Made by a program: the position numbers and the translations under genes
Source of the DNA: Spirosomataceae bacterium
GTDB lineage: Bacteria; Bacteroidota; Bacteroidia; Cytophagales; Spirosomataceae
NCBI GenBank assembly: GCA_025455785.1
Contig: JALOLV010000010.1
Span: forward strand, 1-33,882
Direction: 5' to 3'
DNA: 33,882 nt
In this document: positions 6,765 to 33,882 of the stretch, one piece after another
How positions within the stretch are numbered: the stretch's first letter is position 1
Layout of the letters: each line of letters begins with the position of its first letter
Notes under the pieces: generated by a model
The model's database searches: none
Seen by the model: only the letters and a program-made list of their open reading frames with translations
What the model was told of the DNA's origin: nothing

Positions 6765-7340
6765 GTGGAAGTACTCGAACAAGACATGATTGGTGCAATT
6801 CGGCAAGGAAATGAGGGTGTTTACGAACAAATTTTTCGTAAATACTACCAAAGCCTATGTAATTATGCCAACTCGATGATTCGAGACATGGATGATTCAG
6901 AGGAGATTGTTCAAAATGTTTTTATGACGATTTGGGAGAAAAAAGATGATTTAGAAATTACAATCTCATTAAAATCATATTTGTATCGTGCGGTGCATAA
7001 TCATTGCTTAAACCGAATAAAACATTTTAAAGTTAGAGAAGAATATCAGCAATATGCAACCGATTATTACGATTCGTCGTATCATTCGGTAAGTGAAACG
7101 GTCTATAAGAATGAACTCGAACAAAAAATCAGCGAGGCAATTCAGAAATTACCCGAACAGTGTCGTTTGATTTTTAAAATGAGTCGTTTTGAAGAATTAA
7201 GATACCAAGAAATTGCCGACCAATTAAATTTATCGGTCAAAACAGTCGAAAATCAGATTGGAAAAGCATTAAAGTTTTTAAGAACCGAATTAGTGGATTA
7301 TTTACCAATTATTTTGATACTATTGTTCGAAAAATTATAA
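6765..7340 (+). CDS. ECF RNA polymerase sigma-70 factor (FecI-like)
   Basis: Region 2 (YYQSLCNYANSMIRDMDDSEEIVQNVFMTIWEKK) and region 4 (LPEQCRLIFKMSRFEELRYQEIADQLNLSVKTVENQIGKAL). GTG start at 6765 or ATG at 6786. Confidence 0.9.
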   Translation: MEVLEQDMIGAIRQGNEGVYEQIFRKYYQSLCNYANSMIRDMDDSEEIVQNVFMTIWEKKDDLEITISLKSYLYRAVHNHCLNRIKHFKVREEYQQYATDYYDSSYHSVSETVYKNELEQKISEAIQKLPEQCRLIFKMSRFEELRYQEIADQLNLSVKTVENQIGKALKFLRTELVDYLPIILILLFEKL

Positions 7341-7443
7341 ATTGACCGGTTTTATCAAAACCCCAATGCCTTTCCCACACAGGGGAGAATTTAGGCAACC
7401 GATGCTCGGTGGGGTTAAGCAGACAAAATATGGTTTTTTGAAC
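7337..7443 (+). repeat. Dispersed intergenic repeat, copy 1
   Basis: Ends match the reverse complement of 26638-26781: left ATAAATTnnCCGGTTTTATCAAAACCCCAAT, right GGGAG-ATT-AGGC-ACCGA-GCTCGGTGGGG-TAAGC-GACAAAA-AT-GTTTTT-GAA. The outer edges are approximate. Confidence 0.8.
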
Positions 7444-10304: not shown

Positions 10305-12442
10305 TTTTTAACTATCAATTTTTGTCCAAATCTAACATTATTATCGTTCATTCCGTTCCAATCTTGGATTTGCTTAGTACTCACACCGTATTTTCTCGAA
10401 ATACTGTATAGTGTCTCTCCTTTGGCAACCAAATGATAAACTGTTTCACCTACTTTTGCTTTAGCTTCTTCTTTTGGTTGAACGGTTTTAGTTGCCGTCG
10501 CTTTCGATGCTGTTGCAACGTTAGGATTAACCAATGTCAAAACTTGTCCAACTTTTACTTTGTCTTCAAGGGTCATGTTATTCCAAGTGGCTAAATCACG
10601 AACATAAATCCCAGTTTTACGGGCAATAGCAAAAAGAGTTTCGCCTTGTTGAACTTCGTAGCTTGAGCCATAAGAAGCTGGTTTGGCGGTTGTGGTTGTA
10701 CTTTCTTTAGGTTTCTCTACAACAGGTTTCGGTTTTACAGCCTCAGTTGTATTTTCAACTGGTTTGGGTTGAGTAGATTTTGGTGTGTTTGTCGGTTTAT
10801 TATTCTTCGGTTTTTCTTCGTAAGCAATAATTGTATCCGAATTTTCAATCTCAACAATCGGAGGCTTTTGTTCTTTAGTTTTTGTAACAACTGGCTCCTC
10901 TATCTTAATAACCTCTTCTTTTCTCTCTTTTTCTCTTTCTTGGGGTTCGAGTCTTATGTATGTGTCATCTTCATCCTCAGTTGTTGATTTCTTTGGGGTA
11001 TTTCCACGTTTTTTATCCTTAGTTTCTTCTTCCCAAACAACCGGTTTTTCACTATTTTTGACAGTTGTTTCCTCTTCTACTTTTTTATCTTTACGTTTAT
11101 CTTTTGCAGGAACTACTTTGTCAGTAGCCGGAGCATCGTTCTCTTGAACATACTCGACAGGTTGATTTTTCGGACGCTTCGACTGCAAATACACCACTCT
11201 GCCCGACTGCAAGCGTTTGACTGACTCCATACGGTTAAATTTCAAAAGTTGTCTTAGCCTAACACCATAAATCTGTGAAATATCCCAAAGCGATTCGTTT
11301 TCAGAAACATTATGAAACTTAACTTTTGCTTTACGGTTTTTTGATTGCAAATAATAAACTTTGCCTTCCTCCACCAAATCCTTATCCGACATATCATTGA
11401 ATTTCAAGAAATCAGTAGGTTTCACTTTACCCTTTTTGGCAATCTGACCTACATCATCCCCGGCACTCGCCATAATACCCTTTTTTCCATTAATAACATA
11501 CAAAATAGGTTCTCCATCAGCAACACTTTCAGGTGAAATCCTTTGTAGAACCGGAAAACCAGCTTCGTTTCTTATTCCACTACTGCCTTTTCGATTGATT
11601 TTTGCAATCATATCATCGTATTGGTCAGATGGTACTAAAATTGCGACCGAATACTCCTTATCATTCGGAATTTTACTACCCAAAACCCAAGAGTTGTATC
11701 TTTTAAGCTCGTTTACATCCCAACTTATTTCAGAACCAACCTCCGCTAAAGTCTTTCCTTTGGCATTTTTATATTCAACCATTGTGTATGGAGAGTCTTT
11801 TAGTCGATTCAAACGGTGTTCGTAAGCAACACGGTGGGCAATTGCCTTAATTAAATACCTATCCGCATCGCCATTTAGAGATATTTCGCTGGCAAAAGTC
11901 CAGTTTGAAGGAATTGATTTACTGACTCCAGTTGCCCCTAAATGATATGAAAAAAGTGTAGAAATCCAGTTTTTATAAATTAGATTGTTTCTCTTGAGGT
12001 ACAAAGCCGCAGCACGAGTTGAGGCATAAATATTTTTGCGTTCATCAACCGAATTATCAATTCTTAATCCTAATTCCTGTGCCGTAGCATCTTTGATTTG
12101 CCAAAATCCGACTGCATTAGACGTAGATGAGGCATCAGGAGTAAGTCCACTTTCAAGAACAGGTAAGTATTTGAAATCTTCTGGGATTTCTTCATCCTCG
12201 AGAATCTTCTCGATTATCGGGAAATACCATTGCATTCTTGCCAATTTATCGAACAAAAACTTATTCTCGGGTAGTAAAAGAGCTTGAATTTCGGTTTGAA
12301 CAAGCTTTTGTGCGGCTTGGTCTAATTTTACAGTTACACCAGCAAATTCGGTTTTACGTGGAGCCTCAGGAATACTTGCTTGTTGAGCCGAAGTCTCCGA
12401 AACTGTGAATAAACAGAGCAAAAGGAAAGCAATTTTTTTCAT
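10301..12442 (-). CDS. MltD-like lytic transglycosylase with C-terminal LysM domains
   Basis: SLT domain ([46 protein letters not shown]), LysM repeats ([49 protein letters not shown]), signal peptide. ATGA overlap with DUF3109. Confidence 0.92.
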
Positions 12443-25150: not shown

Positions 25151-25224
25151 CGGGGTGTAGCGTAGCCCGGTATCGCGTTTGGTTTGGGACCAAAAGGTCG
25201 TCAGTTCGAATCTGGCCACCCCGA
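25151..25224 (+). tRNA. tRNA-Pro (TGG), copy 1
   Basis: Acceptor cggggtg/caccccg, anticodon loop TTTGGGA with TGG, T-loop gttcgaatc; 74 nt. Confidence 0.95.
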
Positions 25225-25269
25225 CAAAATTCATTCTACTTATTTAAATTCAATTTCAAATTTGCTCAA

Positions 25270-25343
25270 CGGGGTGTAGCGTAGCCCGGTATCGCGTTTG
25301 GTTTGGGACCAAAAGGTCGTCAGTTCGAATCTGGCCACCCCGA
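25270..25343 (+). tRNA. tRNA-Pro (TGG), copy 2
   Basis: Identical in sequence to 25151-25224. Confidence 0.95.
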
Positions 25344-25349
25344 CAGTAG

Positions 25350-25388: not shown

Positions 25389-26405
25389 TCATCTTTGGGT
25401 AGAGTCCCTTACAATCAACTCCGATTTAAGCATGATTAAGTTGGTTTGTCCAATATCCATTAATCCATTTAAATGGTTTATCATACATTTAGCGGCTATC
25501 TCTCCCATTTCTTTTCCGGGGTAATGAACAGTTGTTAGTTTGGGTTCGATGACTTCTGAGACTGGGTCATTGTTGAATCCTACGACTGCAATATCATCCG
25601 GGATTTTGTAACCTATTCTTTTCAATTCTCCAATGCAACTTGCTGCACAAAAATCATTTGTGATAAATATTCCATCGACATTTAGGTCTTCGGCTTTTAT
25701 TTTATTTGCAATTTGTTTACCTATATCGGGAGATAAATCTGTTTCGAATACCTGAGATTTATCAAAACTTAGATTTTTATCAATCAATGCCTCCTTAAAT
25801 CCTCTCAGTCGTTCTGCATAAACATTCCTCTGCAAGCTACCAGTAATGTGAATGATTTTTTTGCAACCAATTTCAATCAAATGTTTTGTGGCATCGTACC
25901 CACCCTTAAAATTATCAATTATGATACTAAGACAATCGTTGTGTTCGAGTACACGGTCAAAAAATATCAATGGAACACTCTTTTTGATAAATGGCTCAAA
26001 ATGAGAGAAACCTTCAGTATCATATGCTACCGAAACCAATAGACCATCTACCCTACTATTGAACATCGTTTTGATATTGCTTACTTCTTTCTTGTATGAC
26101 TCCAATGATTGACTTATCAGCAGATTATAGCCTGCTTCGTTGGCAACTTTTTCCATTCCAGCCAAAACTGTTGACATCAATGGACTATTAAGACGTGGAA
26201 CTATCACACCAATCGTATTTGTCTTTTGTTTGCGTAGATTACTGGCAAATTTATTAGAACGATACCCCATTTCTTCGGCCTTGGCTTTTATCAAGGTCTT
26301 TGTATTATTGCTTATTGCTTCGTGATTGTTTAATGCTCGACTTACCGTTGCCGGAGAAATATCTAATACTTGAGCAATATCATAAATGGTTATCTCTTTA
26401 TTCAT
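25389..26405 (-). CDS. LacI-family transcriptional regulator
   Basis: N-terminal HTH: ITIYDIAQVLDISPATVSRALNNHEAISNNTKTLIKAKAEEMGYRSNKFASNLRKQKTNTIGVIVP; periplasmic-binding-like domain. Likely start MNKEIT at 26405. Confidence 0.95.
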   Translation of the reverse strand: MNKEITIYDIAQVLDISPATVSRALNNHEAISNNTKTLIKAKAEEMGYRSNKFASNLRKQKTNTIGVIVPRLNSPLMSTVLAGMEKVANEAGYNLLISQSLESYKKEVSNIKTMFNSRVDGLLVSVAYDTEGFSHFEPFIKKSVPLIFFDRVLEHNDCLSIIIDNFKGGYDATKHLIEIGCKKIIHITGSLQRNVYAERLRGFKEALIDKNLSFDKSQVFETDLSPDIGKQIANKIKAEDLNVDGIFITNDFCAASCIGELKRIGYKIPDDIAVVGFNNDPVSEVIEPKLTTVHYPGKEMGEIAAKCMINHLNGLMDIGQTNLIMLKSELIVRDSTQR

Positions 26406-26415
26406 TGTAAAATAA

Positions 26416-26429
26416 TGCAACAGATTGCA
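26416..26429. promoter_or_regulatory. LacI-type operator palindrome TGCAACAGATTGCA (lacI-proximal)
   Basis: 5-bp half-sites TGCAA/TTGCA, 11 nt upstream of the regulator start codon. Confidence 0.65.
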
Positions 26430-26587
26430 AATTATCATGAGATTTCACAAAACAATGATTAAGTGAAACTGTTAAAATTGTAGCTAATTTAAGCATAAAA
26501 CTTACAAAAATGTATGTTAGCTAAATCTTCACAAAAAAAAATTCAAATATTTTTATATAAATTATTAGAATATCAATAAAAAAATTA

Positions 26588-26601
26588 TGCAATCGGTTGC
26601 A
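26588..26601. promoter_or_regulatory. LacI-type operator palindrome TGCAATCGGTTGCA (operon-proximal)
   Basis: Same half-sites with central CG, typical of LacI-family operators, in the divergent intergenic region. Confidence 0.7.
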
Positions 26602-26637: not shown

Positions 26638-26781
26638 TTCTAAAAACTATGTTTTGTCAGCTTAGCCCCACCGAGCGTCGGTCGCCTCAATCCTCCCACA
26701 CTATGGAGGACTTCAAAGTCCCTTTCCCAAGTGGGGAAATGGATTTAGGGATTGGGGTTTTGATAAAACCGGAAAATTTAT
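26638..26781 (-). repeat. Dispersed intergenic repeat, copy 2 (inverted relative to copy 1)
   Basis: Reverse complement shares both ends with 7337-7443 but carries about 36 extra internal nt with further hairpins. Confidence 0.8.
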
Positions 26782-27016: not shown

Positions 27017-28351
27017 ATGTTCAAAAAAGCATTTTTCAGTATTTCTATCTTTGTGAGCATTAAAACTATGGCTCAAAAACCTATTCAATTCATCACGCTT
27101 GACCCCGGTCATTTTCATGCCGCATTGGTTCAAAATAAAAACTATGATAATGTTGAATCAACTGTCAATGTGTATGCTCCCGCAGGTCAAGACCTTCAAG
27201 ACCATTTAAAAAGAATCGAGAGTTATAACACGAGGGCCAAAAATCCAACCAATTGGGTGGAAAATGTTTATCAAGGAAGCGATTATTTAGAAAAAATGCT
27301 TACTGAAAAGAAAGGAAATGTATTAGTAATTTCTGGAAATAATAAAAAGAAAACCGAATACATTTTAAAGTCAGCCCAAGCAGGTATCAATATTCTGGCC
27401 GATAAACCCATGTGTATTGATAGTAAAGGCTATCAGCAACTTATTCAAGCATTTGAAGCCGCTAAAAAAAACAATGTATTGCTTTATGATATAATGACCG
27501 AACGTTCGGAAATTACAACTATTCTTCAAAAAGAAATTTCACAAATTCCATCAATTTTCGGTACACTCCAAAAAGGTACGCCAAATAACCCTTCAATTAT
27601 CAAAGAAAGTGTTCATCATTTTTATAAATACGTTTCTGGCAGTCCGCTGAAACGTCCATCTTGGTTTATGGATGTTTCACAACAAGGAGAAGGGATTGTC
27701 GATGTTACGACTCACTTGGTAGATTTGGTACAATGGGCGGCATTCCCAAATGTTACGCTTTCAACAAAAGATGTGCAACTAACTTCGGCAAACCGTTGGC
27801 CAACAACCATGACATTAAGCCAGTTTTCCATAATTACGGGACAAAATCAATTCCCTGATTTCTTGAAAAATAACTTAATGAATGACACAACTTTAAATAT
27901 CTATGCAAACGGAGAAATTAATTATAAACTTCGTGGGATAAACGCCAAAGTCAAAGTATTGTGGAATTATAGTACTCCCGAAGGTGGAGATACCCATTAT
28001 TCGATAATGAAAGGAACAAAGGCAAATGTTGAAATCAGACAAGGTAAAGCCGAGAGGTTTACGCCTCAATTGTATATTCAAACCAATAGTGTCTCGGATT
28101 CTGAATTGCTAAAGGCATTTGAAGTGTTACAGAAAAAATATGCTGGCATTGCCCTAAAAAAGCAAGGAAGTGAATGGTTGGTTGAAATCCCTGATAGTTA
28201 TAGAACTGGCCATGAGGCACATTTTGGCGAAGTAATGGATAGATTTTTAGATTATAAGGCTAAAAACAAACTACCCGAGTGGGAAGTACCAAATATGTTG
28301 GTAAAGTATTACACAACAACCAAAGCCTTAGAATTAGCCAAGAAAAAATAA
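27017..28351 (+). CDS. Exported Gfo/Idh/MocA-like protein with degenerate glycine motif
   Basis: Signal peptide MFKKAFFSISIFVSIKTMAQ; Rossmann-like ITLDPGHFHAALV, NILADKPMCID (DKP motif). Confidence 0.85.
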   Translation: MFKKAFFSISIFVSIKTMAQKPIQFITLDPGHFHAALVQNKNYDNVESTVNVYAPAGQDLQDHLKRIESYNTRAKNPTNWVENVYQGSDYLEKMLTEKKGNVLVISGNNKKKTEYILKSAQAGINILADKPMCIDSKGYQQLIQAFEAAKKNNVLLYDIMTERSEITTILQKEISQIPSIFGTLQKGTPNNPSIIKESVHHFYKYVSGSPLKRPSWFMDVSQQGEGIVDVTTHLVDLVQWAAFPNVTLSTKDVQLTSANRWPTTMTLSQFSIITGQNQFPDFLKNNLMNDTTLNIYANGEINYKLRGINAKVKVLWNYSTPEGGDTHYSIMKGTKANVEIRQGKAERFTPQLYIQTNSVSDSELLKAFEVLQKKYAGIALKKQGSEWLVEIPDSYRTGHEAHFGEVMDRFLDYKAKNKLPEWEVPNMLVKYYTTTKALELAKKK

Positions 28352-28405: not shown

Positions 28406-29299
28406 ATGAAATTAAAACCCTTCATATTAATTCTCCAATTAATTTTTAGTCAAGAATTAATTGCTCAGAATAAGATTATTGCCCAAAAATTCAATTCCAA
28501 AATTGATGTTTTAATCAACAATAATCTGTTTACGAGTTATATTTTTTCACCAGATGAAAAATATCCGTTCTTTTTTCCGGTAAATGGCCCATCAAATGCT
28601 TCTGTAACTTCAATGCGAAATGCCAACTATCCGCATCATAGCTCTTTGTTTTTTGGGTGTGATAAAGTGAATGGAGGAAATTATTGGCAAGAAGGACTCG
28701 AAAGAGGTCAAATCGTTTCGGTACGAGCTGATATTTTGGAGTCAGGGAGCGAAAAAGTTGTGATTGAAAATGAGTGTATTTGGAGACGCCCGAATGCGGT
28801 TTCGCCCATAAAAGACATTCGCAGAATAACGATAACATCTACCTCAAAAGAACTTTACCAGATTGATTTCGATATTACACTCGAAACATTGATTGATGTA
28901 GTTATTGAGAAAACCAATCATTCATTGTTTAGTGGAAGAATGGACGCTGATTTAGCAGTAATTAACGGTGGAACAATGATAAATTCTAACGGCGAAAAAG
29001 GCGAAAAAGAGACATTCGGGAAAAGAGCCTCATGGATAGATTTTTATGGTAAACGGGGCGAAAAAACGGAGGGAATGGCTATTTTACAACATCCGTCGAA
29101 TCAGTGGTATCCTGCACCGTGGTTTACAAGAGATTATGGTTTTTTCTCACCTACTCCGATGTATTGGCCAGCCAATGACAAAGAAATAACTTTGAAAAAA
29201 GGACAGGTGATTCAATTAAGATACCGTGTATTGGTTCATTCTGGCGATACAGGCAATGCGAAAATTGCAGAACAATTTGAAAAATATAAAGTAGAATAA
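28406..29299 (+). CDS. DUF6807 / PmoA-like exported protein
   Basis: Signal peptide; FPVNGPSNASVTSMRNANYPHHSSLFFGCDKVNGGNYW ... AILQHPSNQWYPAPWFTRDYGFFSPTPMYW. Confidence 0.75.
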   Translation: MKLKPFILILQLIFSQELIAQNKIIAQKFNSKIDVLINNNLFTSYIFSPDEKYPFFFPVNGPSNASVTSMRNANYPHHSSLFFGCDKVNGGNYWQEGLERGQIVSVRADILESGSEKVVIENECIWRRPNAVSPIKDIRRITITSTSKELYQIDFDITLETLIDVVIEKTNHSLFSGRMDADLAVINGGTMINSNGEKGEKETFGKRASWIDFYGKRGEKTEGMAILQHPSNQWYPAPWFTRDYGFFSPTPMYWPANDKEITLKKGQVIQLRYRVLVHSGDTGNAKIAEQFEKYKVE

Positions 29300-29342: not shown

Positions 29343-30737
29343 TTGATATTAAACATGGAACGTAGAAAGTTTATTGGTACTACCTTAAAGGGAGTTGCCG
29401 CGGCTACCATTGGGATTCCTACAATTGTACCATCATCGGTATTTGGAAAAAACGCACCAAGTAATAAGATTAATATTGGTCAAATTGGTTGTGGACGTAT
29501 CGGCCGAGACCATGACATGGTAGGAACAATGCAACACGACCTCGCAAGAATGGTTGCCGTTTGTGATTTAGACAAAAATCGTTTACAAGATGGTAAATTA
29601 TTAGTCGAAAATTACTACAAAAAGAAAACCGGACAAGATAATTATGTAGATGTACGAATGTATGATGATTATCGTGAAATGCTATTAAACAAAGATATTG
29701 ATGCGGTTATTATCAGTACACCCGACCATTGGCATTCTCAACCCGCCATTGAAGCAGCATTGGCAGGCAAAGACATTTACCTACAAAAACCTACTTCATT
29801 GACCATTGCCGAAGGTAGAGTTTTGAGTAATGTAATCAAGAAAACTGGAAGGATTCTTCAAGTGGGTACACAACAACGTTCATCGCCTCAGTTCAGGATT
29901 GCCGCCGAGTTAGTGCGAAATGGTAGAATTGGAAAGCTGCATACTGTTAAGGTAGGTTTACCGGGCGACCCTTCGGGGCCAGCGGCTCCGGCAATGCCAG
30001 TACCGAAAGGCTTTAATTATGATATGTGGTTAGGTTCGACTCCCGAAGTTCCCTACACCGAAATCGGGGTGCATCCGCAAAAAGGTTATGACCGACCGGG
30101 CTGGTTGAGAGTTGAGCAGTTTGGTGCAGGTATGATAACTGGATGGGGACAGCACCATTTCGATTCAGCCGCTTGGGGAATGGATACTGAACTTACTGGC
30201 CCAATTTCAATACAAGCAGTGGCAGAATTTCCAAAATCGGGGCTTTGGAATGTTCACGGTGATTTCATGGTAAAAGCAGAATATGCCAACGGAGTTACGA
30301 TGTACACCAGTGGAGGATTTCCGAACGGAATCAGATATGAAGGAACAGAAGGTTGGATTTTTGTTTCGAGAGGAGATTATGTTGCTTCGGCAAGCGACCC
30401 TGTCTCAAAAGCAAAAAGTAGTAAAGCTCTCGATGCCAGTAACCCTAAAATCTTAGAGTCTGTTATCGGAGAAAATGAGATTCATCTTTATAAAAGTACA
30501 GAACATCACCTTAATTGGCTCGAATGTATCCAATCAAGAAAAGAACCAATTTCACCCGTAGAAATAGGCCATCGTGCTTGTTCAGTGTGTTTAGTTAGTC
30601 ATATTGCCATGAAGTTACCACGCAAACTTAGGTGGAATCCGACTACCGAGAAGTTTATAAATGACGATGAAGCCAACAAAATGCTTTCTCGCTCACAGCG
30701 TAAACCTTATGGAACAAACTATATTAAAATGGCGTAA
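29343..30737 (+). CDS. Gfo/Idh/MocA-family oxidoreductase with Tat-like signal
   Basis: MERRKFIGTTLKGVAAATIG; NIGQIGCGRIGRDH (GxGxxG); DIYLQKPTSLTIAEG; GWGQHHFDSAAWGM. Start may be at the downstream ATG 29355. Confidence 0.93.
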   Translation: MILNMERRKFIGTTLKGVAAATIGIPTIVPSSVFGKNAPSNKINIGQIGCGRIGRDHDMVGTMQHDLARMVAVCDLDKNRLQDGKLLVENYYKKKTGQDNYVDVRMYDDYREMLLNKDIDAVIISTPDHWHSQPAIEAALAGKDIYLQKPTSLTIAEGRVLSNVIKKTGRILQVGTQQRSSPQFRIAAELVRNGRIGKLHTVKVGLPGDPSGPAAPAMPVPKGFNYDMWLGSTPEVPYTEIGVHPQKGYDRPGWLRVEQFGAGMITGWGQHHFDSAAWGMDTELTGPISIQAVAEFPKSGLWNVHGDFMVKAEYANGVTMYTSGGFPNGIRYEGTEGWIFVSRGDYVASASDPVSKAKSSKALDASNPKILESVIGENEIHLYKSTEHHLNWLECIQSRKEPISPVEIGHRACSVCLVSHIAMKLPRKLRWNPTTEKFINDDEANKMLSRSQRKPYGTNYIKMA

Positions 30738-30739
30738 TA

Positions 30740-31903
30740 ATGAAAGAAAAAACTAACGATAGAAGGAATTTCCTAAAAAACAGTACGGCAGCGGCTGGGC
30801 TAATGGCTTTCCCTTTTTTAAATAATAATATTTTAAGAAATTATACGACCGAAATCGTAAAGCCAATTCAATTACAAACCTATGATTCTCCAAGACTAAA
30901 ATTTGCCGTTATCGGAATGAATCATGGTCATATTTATGGTCAAGTTGAGGCCGTAAAAAAAGGTGGTGGTCAGTTGGTTGCATATTATGCAAAAGAAGCA
31001 AATTTGTTAGCAGATTTTGCCAAAAGATACCCAGATGCAAAGTTGGTTAAAGATGAAAAAGAAATTCTTGAAGACAAATCAATTCAGTTGGTTTTGAGTT
31101 CGGCAATAGCATCTGAAAGAGCTCCGTTGGGTATAAGAGTTATGAAATCAGGTAAAGATTTTATGTCTGATAAACCCGGTATTACTACCCTCGAACAATT
31201 ATCAGAGGTGAGAAAAGTTCAGAAAGCTACTGGTCGAATTTATTCGATTATGTATAGCGAACGTTTTGAAAATAAGGCAACTGTGAAAGCAGGCGAATTG
31301 GTAAAAGCGGGTGCAATTGGCAATGTAATCCAGACTATTGGGCTTGGACCGCACAGAATGAATACCAAAAGTCGTCCCGAATGGTTTTTCGACAAAGACC
31401 TTTTCGGAGGAATCCTTACTGATATTGCTTCACATCAATTCGACCAATTTTTATTTTTTACTGATTCAAAAAAAGCAGATGTTGTGGCTTCGCAAATCGG
31501 AAATGTTCATCATCCACAATATCCTAAATTTGAAGACTTTGGCGATGTCATGCTTCGTGGTGATGGTGGTATGGGATATATCCGTGTTGATTGGTTTACC
31601 CCAGATGGTTTAAAAACTTGGGGTGATGGAAGGCTCACCATATTGGGAACGGATGGTTATATTGAAATCAGAAAAAATATTGATATTGCTGGTCGAGAAG
31701 GTGGAAGCCATTTGTTTTTGATTGATAATAAGGAAACCAAACACTTTGATTGTGCTGCACAGGTATTGCCTTATGGTACGCAGTTGGTCGATGACATCCT
31801 GAATAGAACCGAAACAGCCATGACCCAAGAACACTGCTTTTTGGCAATGGAATTGGCCTTAAAAGCACAAAAAAACGCCCAAAGAATAAATTTAAAGAAG
31901 TAA
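30740..31903 (+). CDS. Gfo/Idh/MocA-family oxidoreductase with Tat-like signal
   Basis: DRRNFLKNSTAAAGLMAFPF; KFAVIGMNHGHIYGQ; DFMSDKPGITTLEQL; GGILTDIASHQFDQF. Confidence 0.9.
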   Translation: MKEKTNDRRNFLKNSTAAAGLMAFPFLNNNILRNYTTEIVKPIQLQTYDSPRLKFAVIGMNHGHIYGQVEAVKKGGGQLVAYYAKEANLLADFAKRYPDAKLVKDEKEILEDKSIQLVLSSAIASERAPLGIRVMKSGKDFMSDKPGITTLEQLSEVRKVQKATGRIYSIMYSERFENKATVKAGELVKAGAIGNVIQTIGLGPHRMNTKSRPEWFFDKDLFGGILTDIASHQFDQFLFFTDSKKADVVASQIGNVHHPQYPKFEDFGDVMLRGDGGMGYIRVDWFTPDGLKTWGDGRLTILGTDGYIEIRKNIDIAGREGGSHLFLIDNKETKHFDCAAQVLPYGTQLVDDILNRTETAMTQEHCFLAMELALKAQKNAQRINLKK

Positions 31904-31904
31904 A

Positions 31905-33086
31905 ATGATACACACAATGCGTTGGTTCGGGCCAAATGACCCAGTCTCGTTGATGGACATTCGACAAGCTGGATGTACGGGCATTGTAACGGCACTGCAT
32001 CAAATTCCGGTTGGGGAGGTTTGGAATGTAGAAGCCATCAAAGAGCGAATAGATAGTATAGAAAAAGACAACGACCGATACTCTGAACTTAAATGGTTGG
32101 TCGTTGAGAGTTTACCTGTGCATGAGGACATCAAAAAAGGTTTACCCTCAAGAGAACATTTCATTGAAAACTATAAAACTTCGTTAAAAAATCTTGCGAA
32201 GTGCGGCATAAAAACGGTTTGTTACAACTTTATGCCTGTTCTTGATTGGTCAAGAACCAATCTAAACTTTGAAATGCCCGATGGCTCGAAGGCTCTACGT
32301 TTTGTTTGGGAAGACTTTGCGGTGTTTGATTTATGTATTCTAAAAAGGCCCAATGCTGAAAAAGACTATGAAGAGAATGTGATTGAAGCAGCAAAGAACA
32401 AGTTTGATAGAATGTCCGAAATTGAAATAAAAACCCTAAAAGACACCGCACTTTTGGGATTACCGGGTTCTGAAGAGGCTTTTGATTTGAATACTTTTCA
32501 AAGTTTATTAGATAACTACAATGAAATCGGAGACAGAGAATTAAGGGAGAATTTGTACTATTTCATTAAACAAGTCGCTCCTGTTGCCCAAGAGTTGGGT
32601 ATAAATTTATGTATTCATCCCGACGACCCACCCAAACCATTGTTAGGATTGCCACGTGTGGTTAGCACCGAAAATGATTTGGTTCAACTCATGAGTGCAT
32701 ACGATAATCCAGCAAACGGAATCACTTATTGTACTGGCTCTCTGGGGGTTCGTGAAGACAACAATTTGCCTCAAATTATTCGTAGATTCGGTAATAGGAT
32801 TCACTTTATTCACCTAAGAGCAACCAAAAGAGAAGAAAATCCTCGTAATTTTCATGAAGCCGACCACTTGACTGGCGATGTTGATATGTATTCGGTAGTC
32901 AAGGAGATAGTTATTGAAGAAAGAAGAAGTGGTCGAAGTATCCCGATGCGACCCGACCATGGGCACCAAATGCTCGATGATTTGAATAAAAAAACGTATC
33001 CCGGCTACTCTGCTATCGGGCGTTTACGTGGGTTAGCAGAACTAAGAGGATTAGAATTGGGGATTTTGCGGTCTATGGATGAGTGA
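31905..33086 (+). CDS. uxuA: Mannonate dehydratase
   Basis: MRWFGPNDPVSLMDIRQAGCTGIVTALHQIPVGEVW; CYNFMPVLDWSRTNL; NLCIHPDDPPKPLLGLPRVVS; HFIHLRATKRE; RPDHGHQMLDD. Confidence 0.96.
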   Translation: MIHTMRWFGPNDPVSLMDIRQAGCTGIVTALHQIPVGEVWNVEAIKERIDSIEKDNDRYSELKWLVVESLPVHEDIKKGLPSREHFIENYKTSLKNLAKCGIKTVCYNFMPVLDWSRTNLNFEMPDGSKALRFVWEDFAVFDLCILKRPNAEKDYEENVIEAAKNKFDRMSEIEIKTLKDTALLGLPGSEEAFDLNTFQSLLDNYNEIGDRELRENLYYFIKQVAPVAQELGINLCIHPDDPPKPLLGLPRVVSTENDLVQLMSAYDNPANGITYCTGSLGVREDNNLPQIIRRFGNRIHFIHLRATKREENPRNFHEADHLTGDVDMYSVVKEIVIEERRSGRSIPMRPDHGHQMLDDLNKKTYPGYSAIGRLRGLAELRGLELGILRSMDE

Positions 33087-33144: not shown

Positions 33145-33882
33145 ATGAATATTGAAAACGTAAATGTAAAATATCCGAATATTTTTTCATTAGAAGGCAA
33201 AATTGCTTTGATTACAGGCGGCGGAAGCGGTATTGGTTACGAAATAGCCCAATGTATGCAAATGGCTGGTGCAAAAGTCATTATTACGGGTCGTAGAGAG
33301 TTTGCTTTGCAAGAAGCAACCCAAAGTTTGGGTGATAATGTGCATTACATTGTCAATGATGTTACAGACTTGCCTAAGCTCGAAGGTTTGGTTGAGCAAG
33401 TAGAATCGACACACGGGCCGATAGATATTTTGGTAAATAATGCTGGAATCAACATGAAAAAGCCAGCCATTGATGTTACAGACGAAGAGTTTGATAGAAT
33501 CGTTCATACCAATCTTAACTCGGTTTTTGCATTGACAAGAGCTTGCGGAAAAAGAATGCTCGAACGAAAAAATGGTTCAATTATCATGATTTCGTCAATG
33601 GCGGCTTATTATGGAATCGACCGTGTTGTAGCTTACGCAGCTTCTAAATCGGGGGTTGAAGGAATGGTAAAAGTTTTAGCTTCTGAATTTTCAAGATTCA
33701 ATGTAAGAGTAAACGCCATTGCTCCCGGATTCATCGAAACCAATATGATGAAAACAGCTATGAGCAGCGACCCAGACCGTATAAATAAAGCCCTCGGACG
33801 AACACCAATGGCTAAATTTGGAAAACCACAAGACATTGGTTGGGCTGCCGTATTTTTAGCTTCAGAAGCTGCAGGATATATT
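33145..33882 (+). CDS. SDR-family oxidoreductase (partial, runs off window); possible fructuronate/mannonate reductase by context
   Basis: LEGKIALITGGGSGIGYEIA, LVNNAGIN, ISSMAAYYGIDRVVAYAASKSGVEGMVK (Ser-Tyr-Lys), NAIAPGFIETNM. ATG at 33145, open to the window end. Confidence 0.92.
   Translation, partial: MNIENVNVKYPNIFSLEGKIALITGGGSGIGYEIAQCMQMAGAKVIITGRREFALQEATQSLGDNVHYIVNDVTDLPKLEGLVEQVESTHGPIDILVNNAGINMKKPAIDVTDEEFDRIVHTNLNSVFALTRACGKRMLERKNGSIIMISSMAAYYGIDRVVAYAASKSGVEGMVKVLASEFSRFNVRVNAIAPGFIETNMMKTAMSSDPDRINKALGRTPMAKFGKPQDIGWAAVFLASEAAGYI

Follow-up and report, generated by a model that had tools for sequence, protein, structure and literature searches.

The two palindromes that lie between a lacI-type regulator gene and a divergent oxidoreductase/uxuA operon are most likely operators of the adjacent LacI-family repressor, a member of a Bacteroidota-wide clade; the distal site would repress the operon and the proximal site would tune lacI, independently of each other and under the control of a uronate-type inducer. 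We put the probability of this reading at about 0.85. It was developed from a stretch of 33,882 nucleotides from a Spirosomataceae bacterium, here called the window, and from a comparison with related loci. The 611-bp gap between lacI (minus strand) and the operon (plus strand) contains two exact TGCAAN4TTGCA palindromes, the lacI-proximal TGCAACAGATTGCA (26416..26429) and the operon-side or distal TGCAATCGGTTGCA (26588..26601), neither assigned to a strand. Both 14-mers were found exactly where an earlier note on this DNA had placed them, 172 bp apart start to start.

Locus organization and rarity of the palindromes

The regulator (25389..26405, minus strand) is a protein of 338 amino acids composed of a LacI helix-turn-helix domain (PF00356, 41.4 bits, cut-off 27) and a periplasmic-binding-protein-like sensor domain (PF13377, 93.4 bits, cut-off 26.5). 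A PDB profile search returned CcpA and PurR (3oqm, 1rzr, 1bdi) as the best solved structures over the full length, and in the phylogenetic tree the regulator clade reached an SH-aLRT support of 100. The start codon occupies 26403-26405, with 10 nt between it and the proximal site. This start, which the earlier note had chosen, is the right one, as orthologues align from that methionine; an alternative in-frame ATG at 26438, which would put the proximal operator inside the coding sequence, was rejected since orthologues begin at the 26405 methionine. Directly downstream of lacI, and beside a tRNA-Ser(GCT) gene, are two tandem, near-identical tRNA-Pro(TGG) genes (25151-25225 and 25270-25344).

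The divergent operon, entirely on the plus strand, opens with a Gfo/Idh/MocA-type oxidoreductase carrying a PF16490 C-terminal domain (27017..28351), followed by a DUF6807 protein (28406..29299, domain profile match) and two further Gfo/Idh/MocA-type oxidoreductases (29355..30737 and 30740..31903, domain profile matches). Next come the D-mannonate dehydratase UxuA (31905..33086; TIGR00695, 526.7 bits, cut-off 199.55) and a short-chain dehydrogenase (SDR; 33145..33882) truncated by the contig end, which judging from its context is probably a fructuronate/mannonate oxidoreductase. The distal operator is separated from the first operon gene by 415 bp, a distance that may be explained by the hairpin-forming interspersed repeat located between them (26650..26775, no strand assigned, fold z = -3.3). 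A shorter, internally deleted inverted copy of this repeat of approximately 115 bp is found at 7346-7425, partial copies are present on contigs C410 and C260, and a search for it gave four other partial matches.

Exact copies of TGCAAN4TTGCA are rare. The two sites are the only ones in the window and the 4.0 Mb assembly has 12 in all; at the density given by the other 10 copies, two exact copies in such a gap are expected with p ~1e-6. At two mismatches there is no enrichment in the window (26 found vs 29 expected from shuffled sequence), and loose matches are therefore meaningless here. Both sites are part of a 25-nt direct repeat of 84% identity that includes the flank ATGCAA-N4-TTGCAAATT. 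The earlier note had counted this flank as an extended context shared by both sites, which holds for the window. In relatives, however, the outer flank is A/T-rich only and not conserved letter by letter, and we rejected it as part of the site.

A weight matrix derived from the relatives' sites (maximum score 25.7) ranked the distal site first (25.4) and the proximal site second (19.0) among the candidates of the same genome that were examined; the candidate in third place (16.4) is located within a coding sequence. Matching with the refined motif TGCAAYCGRTTGCA, which is described below, gave a similar picture: one exact match, the distal site; one match with a single deviation, the proximal site, which has lost the central CpG; and all others with two mismatches. 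No regulon beyond the locus emerged among the candidates examined in this 66% complete assembly, the next-best sites being coding or weak. With only two top-ranking sites and the next one coding, the system looks like a local switch in the assembled 66% of the genome. One weak intergenic match, TGAAATCGTTTGCA (C15:2830-2843 in this genome; L077:1501-1514), precedes a GHMP (galactokinase-like) kinase gene by 214 bp and is possibly a minor target.

Conservation of the motif and of its gene neighbourhood

Close homologues of the regulator were collected from relatives by a whole-genome search (52-67% identical) and from a species-representative collection (up to 74%). After removal of one duplicate, the orthologue set comprised 64 loci across Bacteroidota with more than about 50% identity, which are related and thus not fully independent. 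With 39-48% identity, loci L154-L182 except L156 were classed as distant homologues, kept out of the orthologue set and used for contrast. The 600 bp upstream of each regulator gene were searched, with shuffles, the reversed pattern and a stretch of the same length within the lacI genes as controls. Since the pattern TGCAAN4TTGCA had been fixed beforehand from the window alone, the test is independent of the relatives.

The exact pattern was found upstream in 35 of the 64 loci (shuffles: mean 0.2, maximum 1; reversed pattern 0; inside lacI genes 0). Allowing at most one mismatch raised this to 56 of 64 (shuffles: mean 3.0, maximum 8; reversed 1; inside lacI genes 1), leaving eight loci without such a site. 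A motif not conserved upstream of orthologues had been named by the earlier note as the outcome that would speak against LacI-type operators; these counts show the opposite. Alignment of 63 sites refined the motif to TGCAAYCGRTTGCA, which is narrower than TGCAAN4TTGCA, with a central CpG in nearly all sites and A/T-rich flanks. The commonest form among orthologues is that of the distal site. A central CG is described as the hallmark of even palindromes in the LacI family (PMC4052901). The distal site at 26588 and its counterparts in relatives are even palindromes with a central CG near the regulator gene; the proximal site is without the CG.

The motif also follows the regulator between genomes. 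In a scan of 59 genomes, 13 of the 16 with a clear orthologue contained exact TGCAAYCGRTTGCA, vs 2 of the 43 without (Fisher p ~1e-8), and the reversed pattern occurred three times in all. Taken together, exact-copy rarity, regulator-motif co-occurrence and orthologue conservation reject a chance palindrome. Three distant homologues (L157, L160, L171) have CGCAAYCGRTTGCG-type sites upstream of their LacI gene, which suggests that the operator has changed along with the DNA-binding domain.

Regarding the genes near the orthologous regulators, SDR homologues were found in 39/64 loci, uxuA in 31/64, GH67 alpha-glucuronidase in 30/64, GH10 in 21/64 and SusC in 20/64, besides GH43 and GH3; a homologue of the oxidoreductase at 29355..30737 was present in 10/64. 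At least one of GH67, uxuA and GH10 accompanied the regulator in 50 of the 64 orthologue loci vs 6 of 28 distant homologues. Linkage to uxuA and SDR genes, by which UxuR-type glucuronate regulators are recognized, extends across the orthologue loci. In the same genomes, exact sites remote from the regulator are near GH10, GH43, GH3, acetylesterase, SusC/D pairs, an FGGY kinase, and RraA-like and mandelate-racemase-like genes. Because its neighbours are uxuA, SDR, GH67, GH10, GH43, GH3 and SusC/D, the regulator appears to be a repressor of glucuronate/glucuronoxylan use. LacI-type operators and divergent control of the uxuA operon, both proposed in the earlier note, are well supported by the 64-locus conservation, the regulator-motif co-occurrence and this matching gene context. 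The genome itself encodes UxaC on contig C132; a search for GH67 in the incomplete assembly (66%) found none.

We tentatively propose, with odds somewhat below even, that in several Bacteroidota orders a single LacI-family clade with a near-invariant TGCAAYCGRTTGCA joins the breakdown of glucuronate in the cytoplasm (uxuA, SDR) to that of glucuronoxylan at the cell surface and in the periplasm (SusC/D, GH10, GH43, GH3, GH67). If true, such a clade would be the one-component equivalent of the hybrid two-component systems better known for controlling xylan loci. In two genera (L094:5188-5201, L101:5331-5344) the coding sequence of altronate dehydratase (uxaA) contains exact TGCAACCGATTGCA at one and the same position, while the surrounding bases differ; either an operator within the gene or a coding constraint could account for this. 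In locus L095, exact TGCAATCGGTTGCA is found in each of two tandem SusC-type receptor genes (7025-7038 and 12247-12260), ~106-119 bp past the predicted start, which suggests that the starts are misplaced or that operators are situated within the leader region.

Proposed switch and alternative readings

From motif, conservation, co-occurrence and gene context we infer binding, and repression rather than activation. Without inducer, a repressor dimer at 26588-26601 would shut the divergent oxidoreductase/DUF6807/uxuA/SDR operon. A second dimer would sit, more weakly, at 26416-26429, cover the candidate lacI promoter and start region, and tune synthesis of the repressor itself. Release would probably be brought about by a glucuronate-breakdown intermediate or an aldouronate, and the two sites probably act independently, with no loop.

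Promoter positions are likewise predicted. Across 65 loci (the 64 relatives and the window), the Bacteroidetes promoter element TANNTTTG is located 10-28 bp past the site centre in operon direction in 8 loci, vs 1.5 for shuffled flanks, and overlaps the site in lacI direction in 8 loci, vs 2.4. No perfect TANNTTTG was found near the sites for either promoter in the window. The candidate -7 element of the lacI promoter, TAATTTG (26428..26434, minus strand), is one base short of it and overlaps the proximal operator, an arrangement that would put lacI transcription under this operator. The lack of a perfect element in the window weighs against the preferred reading, and so do the 415 bp, repeat included, between the distal operator and the operon.

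The most serious alternative is that the distal site alone is functional, the proximal one being a decayed or chance copy and lacI not autoregulated. We regard it as unlikely. The proximal site has CAGA instead of CCGA at its centre, having lost the CpG, and scores 6 bits lower. Of the relatives with paired sites, 15 have the poorer match and 2 the better one in the proximal position (sign test ~0.002), and L104, which at 74% identity is the closest relative, has one site only, with no counterpart of the proximal one. On the other hand, both proximal 5-bp half-sites are perfect, with just 12 such palindromes in the 4 Mb, and the site overlaps the promoter-like TAATTTG, whose placement matches that in some other members. 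Autoregulation as claimed in the earlier note is thus plausible in a mild form: two sites occur upstream in 25 of the 64 relatives, more than in shuffles, and mild autoregulation fits a proximal site that is weaker here and a worse match in most paired relatives. It is not secured, because L104 has no proximal site.

The earlier note had further suggested looping as a possibility. In a looped switch, a tetramer or two touching dimers would bridge the two operators and a 172-bp loop would repress both promoters jointly. The same-gap pair in the window and the frequency of paired sites in relatives are in its favour. Several observations argue against it and make it improbable: the 338-aa protein ends with its core domain where CcpA and PurR end, lacking a C-terminal tetramerization tail of the LacI type; the spacing of the 26 pairs ranges from 66 to 416 bp, and their helical phase is unconvincing (Rayleigh p ~0.26 for a turn of 10.5 bp and 0.05 for one of 10.6 bp, which did best among the four periods tried); and L104 has a single site. 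Looping via other proteins is possible; nothing here points to it.

An assignment of the sites to a different LacI-family paralogue or to a global regulator is very improbable: a paralogue on contig C207 does have its own TGCAAATGTTTGCA ~16 bp upstream, and the TGCAA half-site is therefore common within the family, but the centre of that site differs (ATGT), and TGCAAYCGRTTGCA follows the adjacent regulator's orthologue from genome to genome and adjoins its gene.

Relation to known uronate regulators

Independent operators of the adjacent repressor, our preferred reading, describe a switch of a conserved but ordinary kind. CcpA and PurR, the closest solved structures, are likewise LacI-family repressors that act as dimers, but their roles are global or purine-related, and their operators and effectors differ; E. 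coli LacI, in contrast to the present regulator, has a C-terminal tetramerization helix. Compared by description, the regulator very probably belongs to the circle of predicted LacI-family hexuronate regulators. GH109 enzymes are Gfo/Idh/MocA-like. UxuR2 of Algoriphagus marincola HL-49, a LacI-family protein with predicted control of glucuronate and galacturonate genes, resembles the present regulator in its Cytophagales origin, family and uronate genes, and its loci are described as encoding a GH109 protein (PMC5507952). They are also described as carrying a TRAP transporter (PMC5507952), whereas none is seen in the part of the present operon that the window covers. In Bacteroides, UxuR (BT1434), UxaR (BT0824) and KdgR (BT0487) are LacI-family regulators of the same pathway, predicted to control glucuronate, galacturonate and KDG catabolism, and a uxuRBA operon is mentioned (PMC3878776, PMC4052901). 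As described there, their regulons are mainly cytoplasmic, whereas members of the present clade are also found beside GH67, GH10, GH43 and SusC/D genes.

A search of a literature collection for the motif as a literal string found no paper, though related LacI-family uronate regulators have already been predicted. Of greater interest are how widely the clade is spread and how it is linked to xylan-degrading genes. The regulator-operator pair comes with a defined 14-bp consensus that can be used across Bacteroidota genomes, and uncharacterized Gfo/Idh/MocA and DUF6807 genes become tied to glucuronate or glucuronoxylan metabolism. In some Chitinophagaceae (L127:9956-12123, L133:9992-12135) the regulator gene is directly followed by another LacI-family gene whose DNA-binding domain is similar, and such a tandem pair may split functions.
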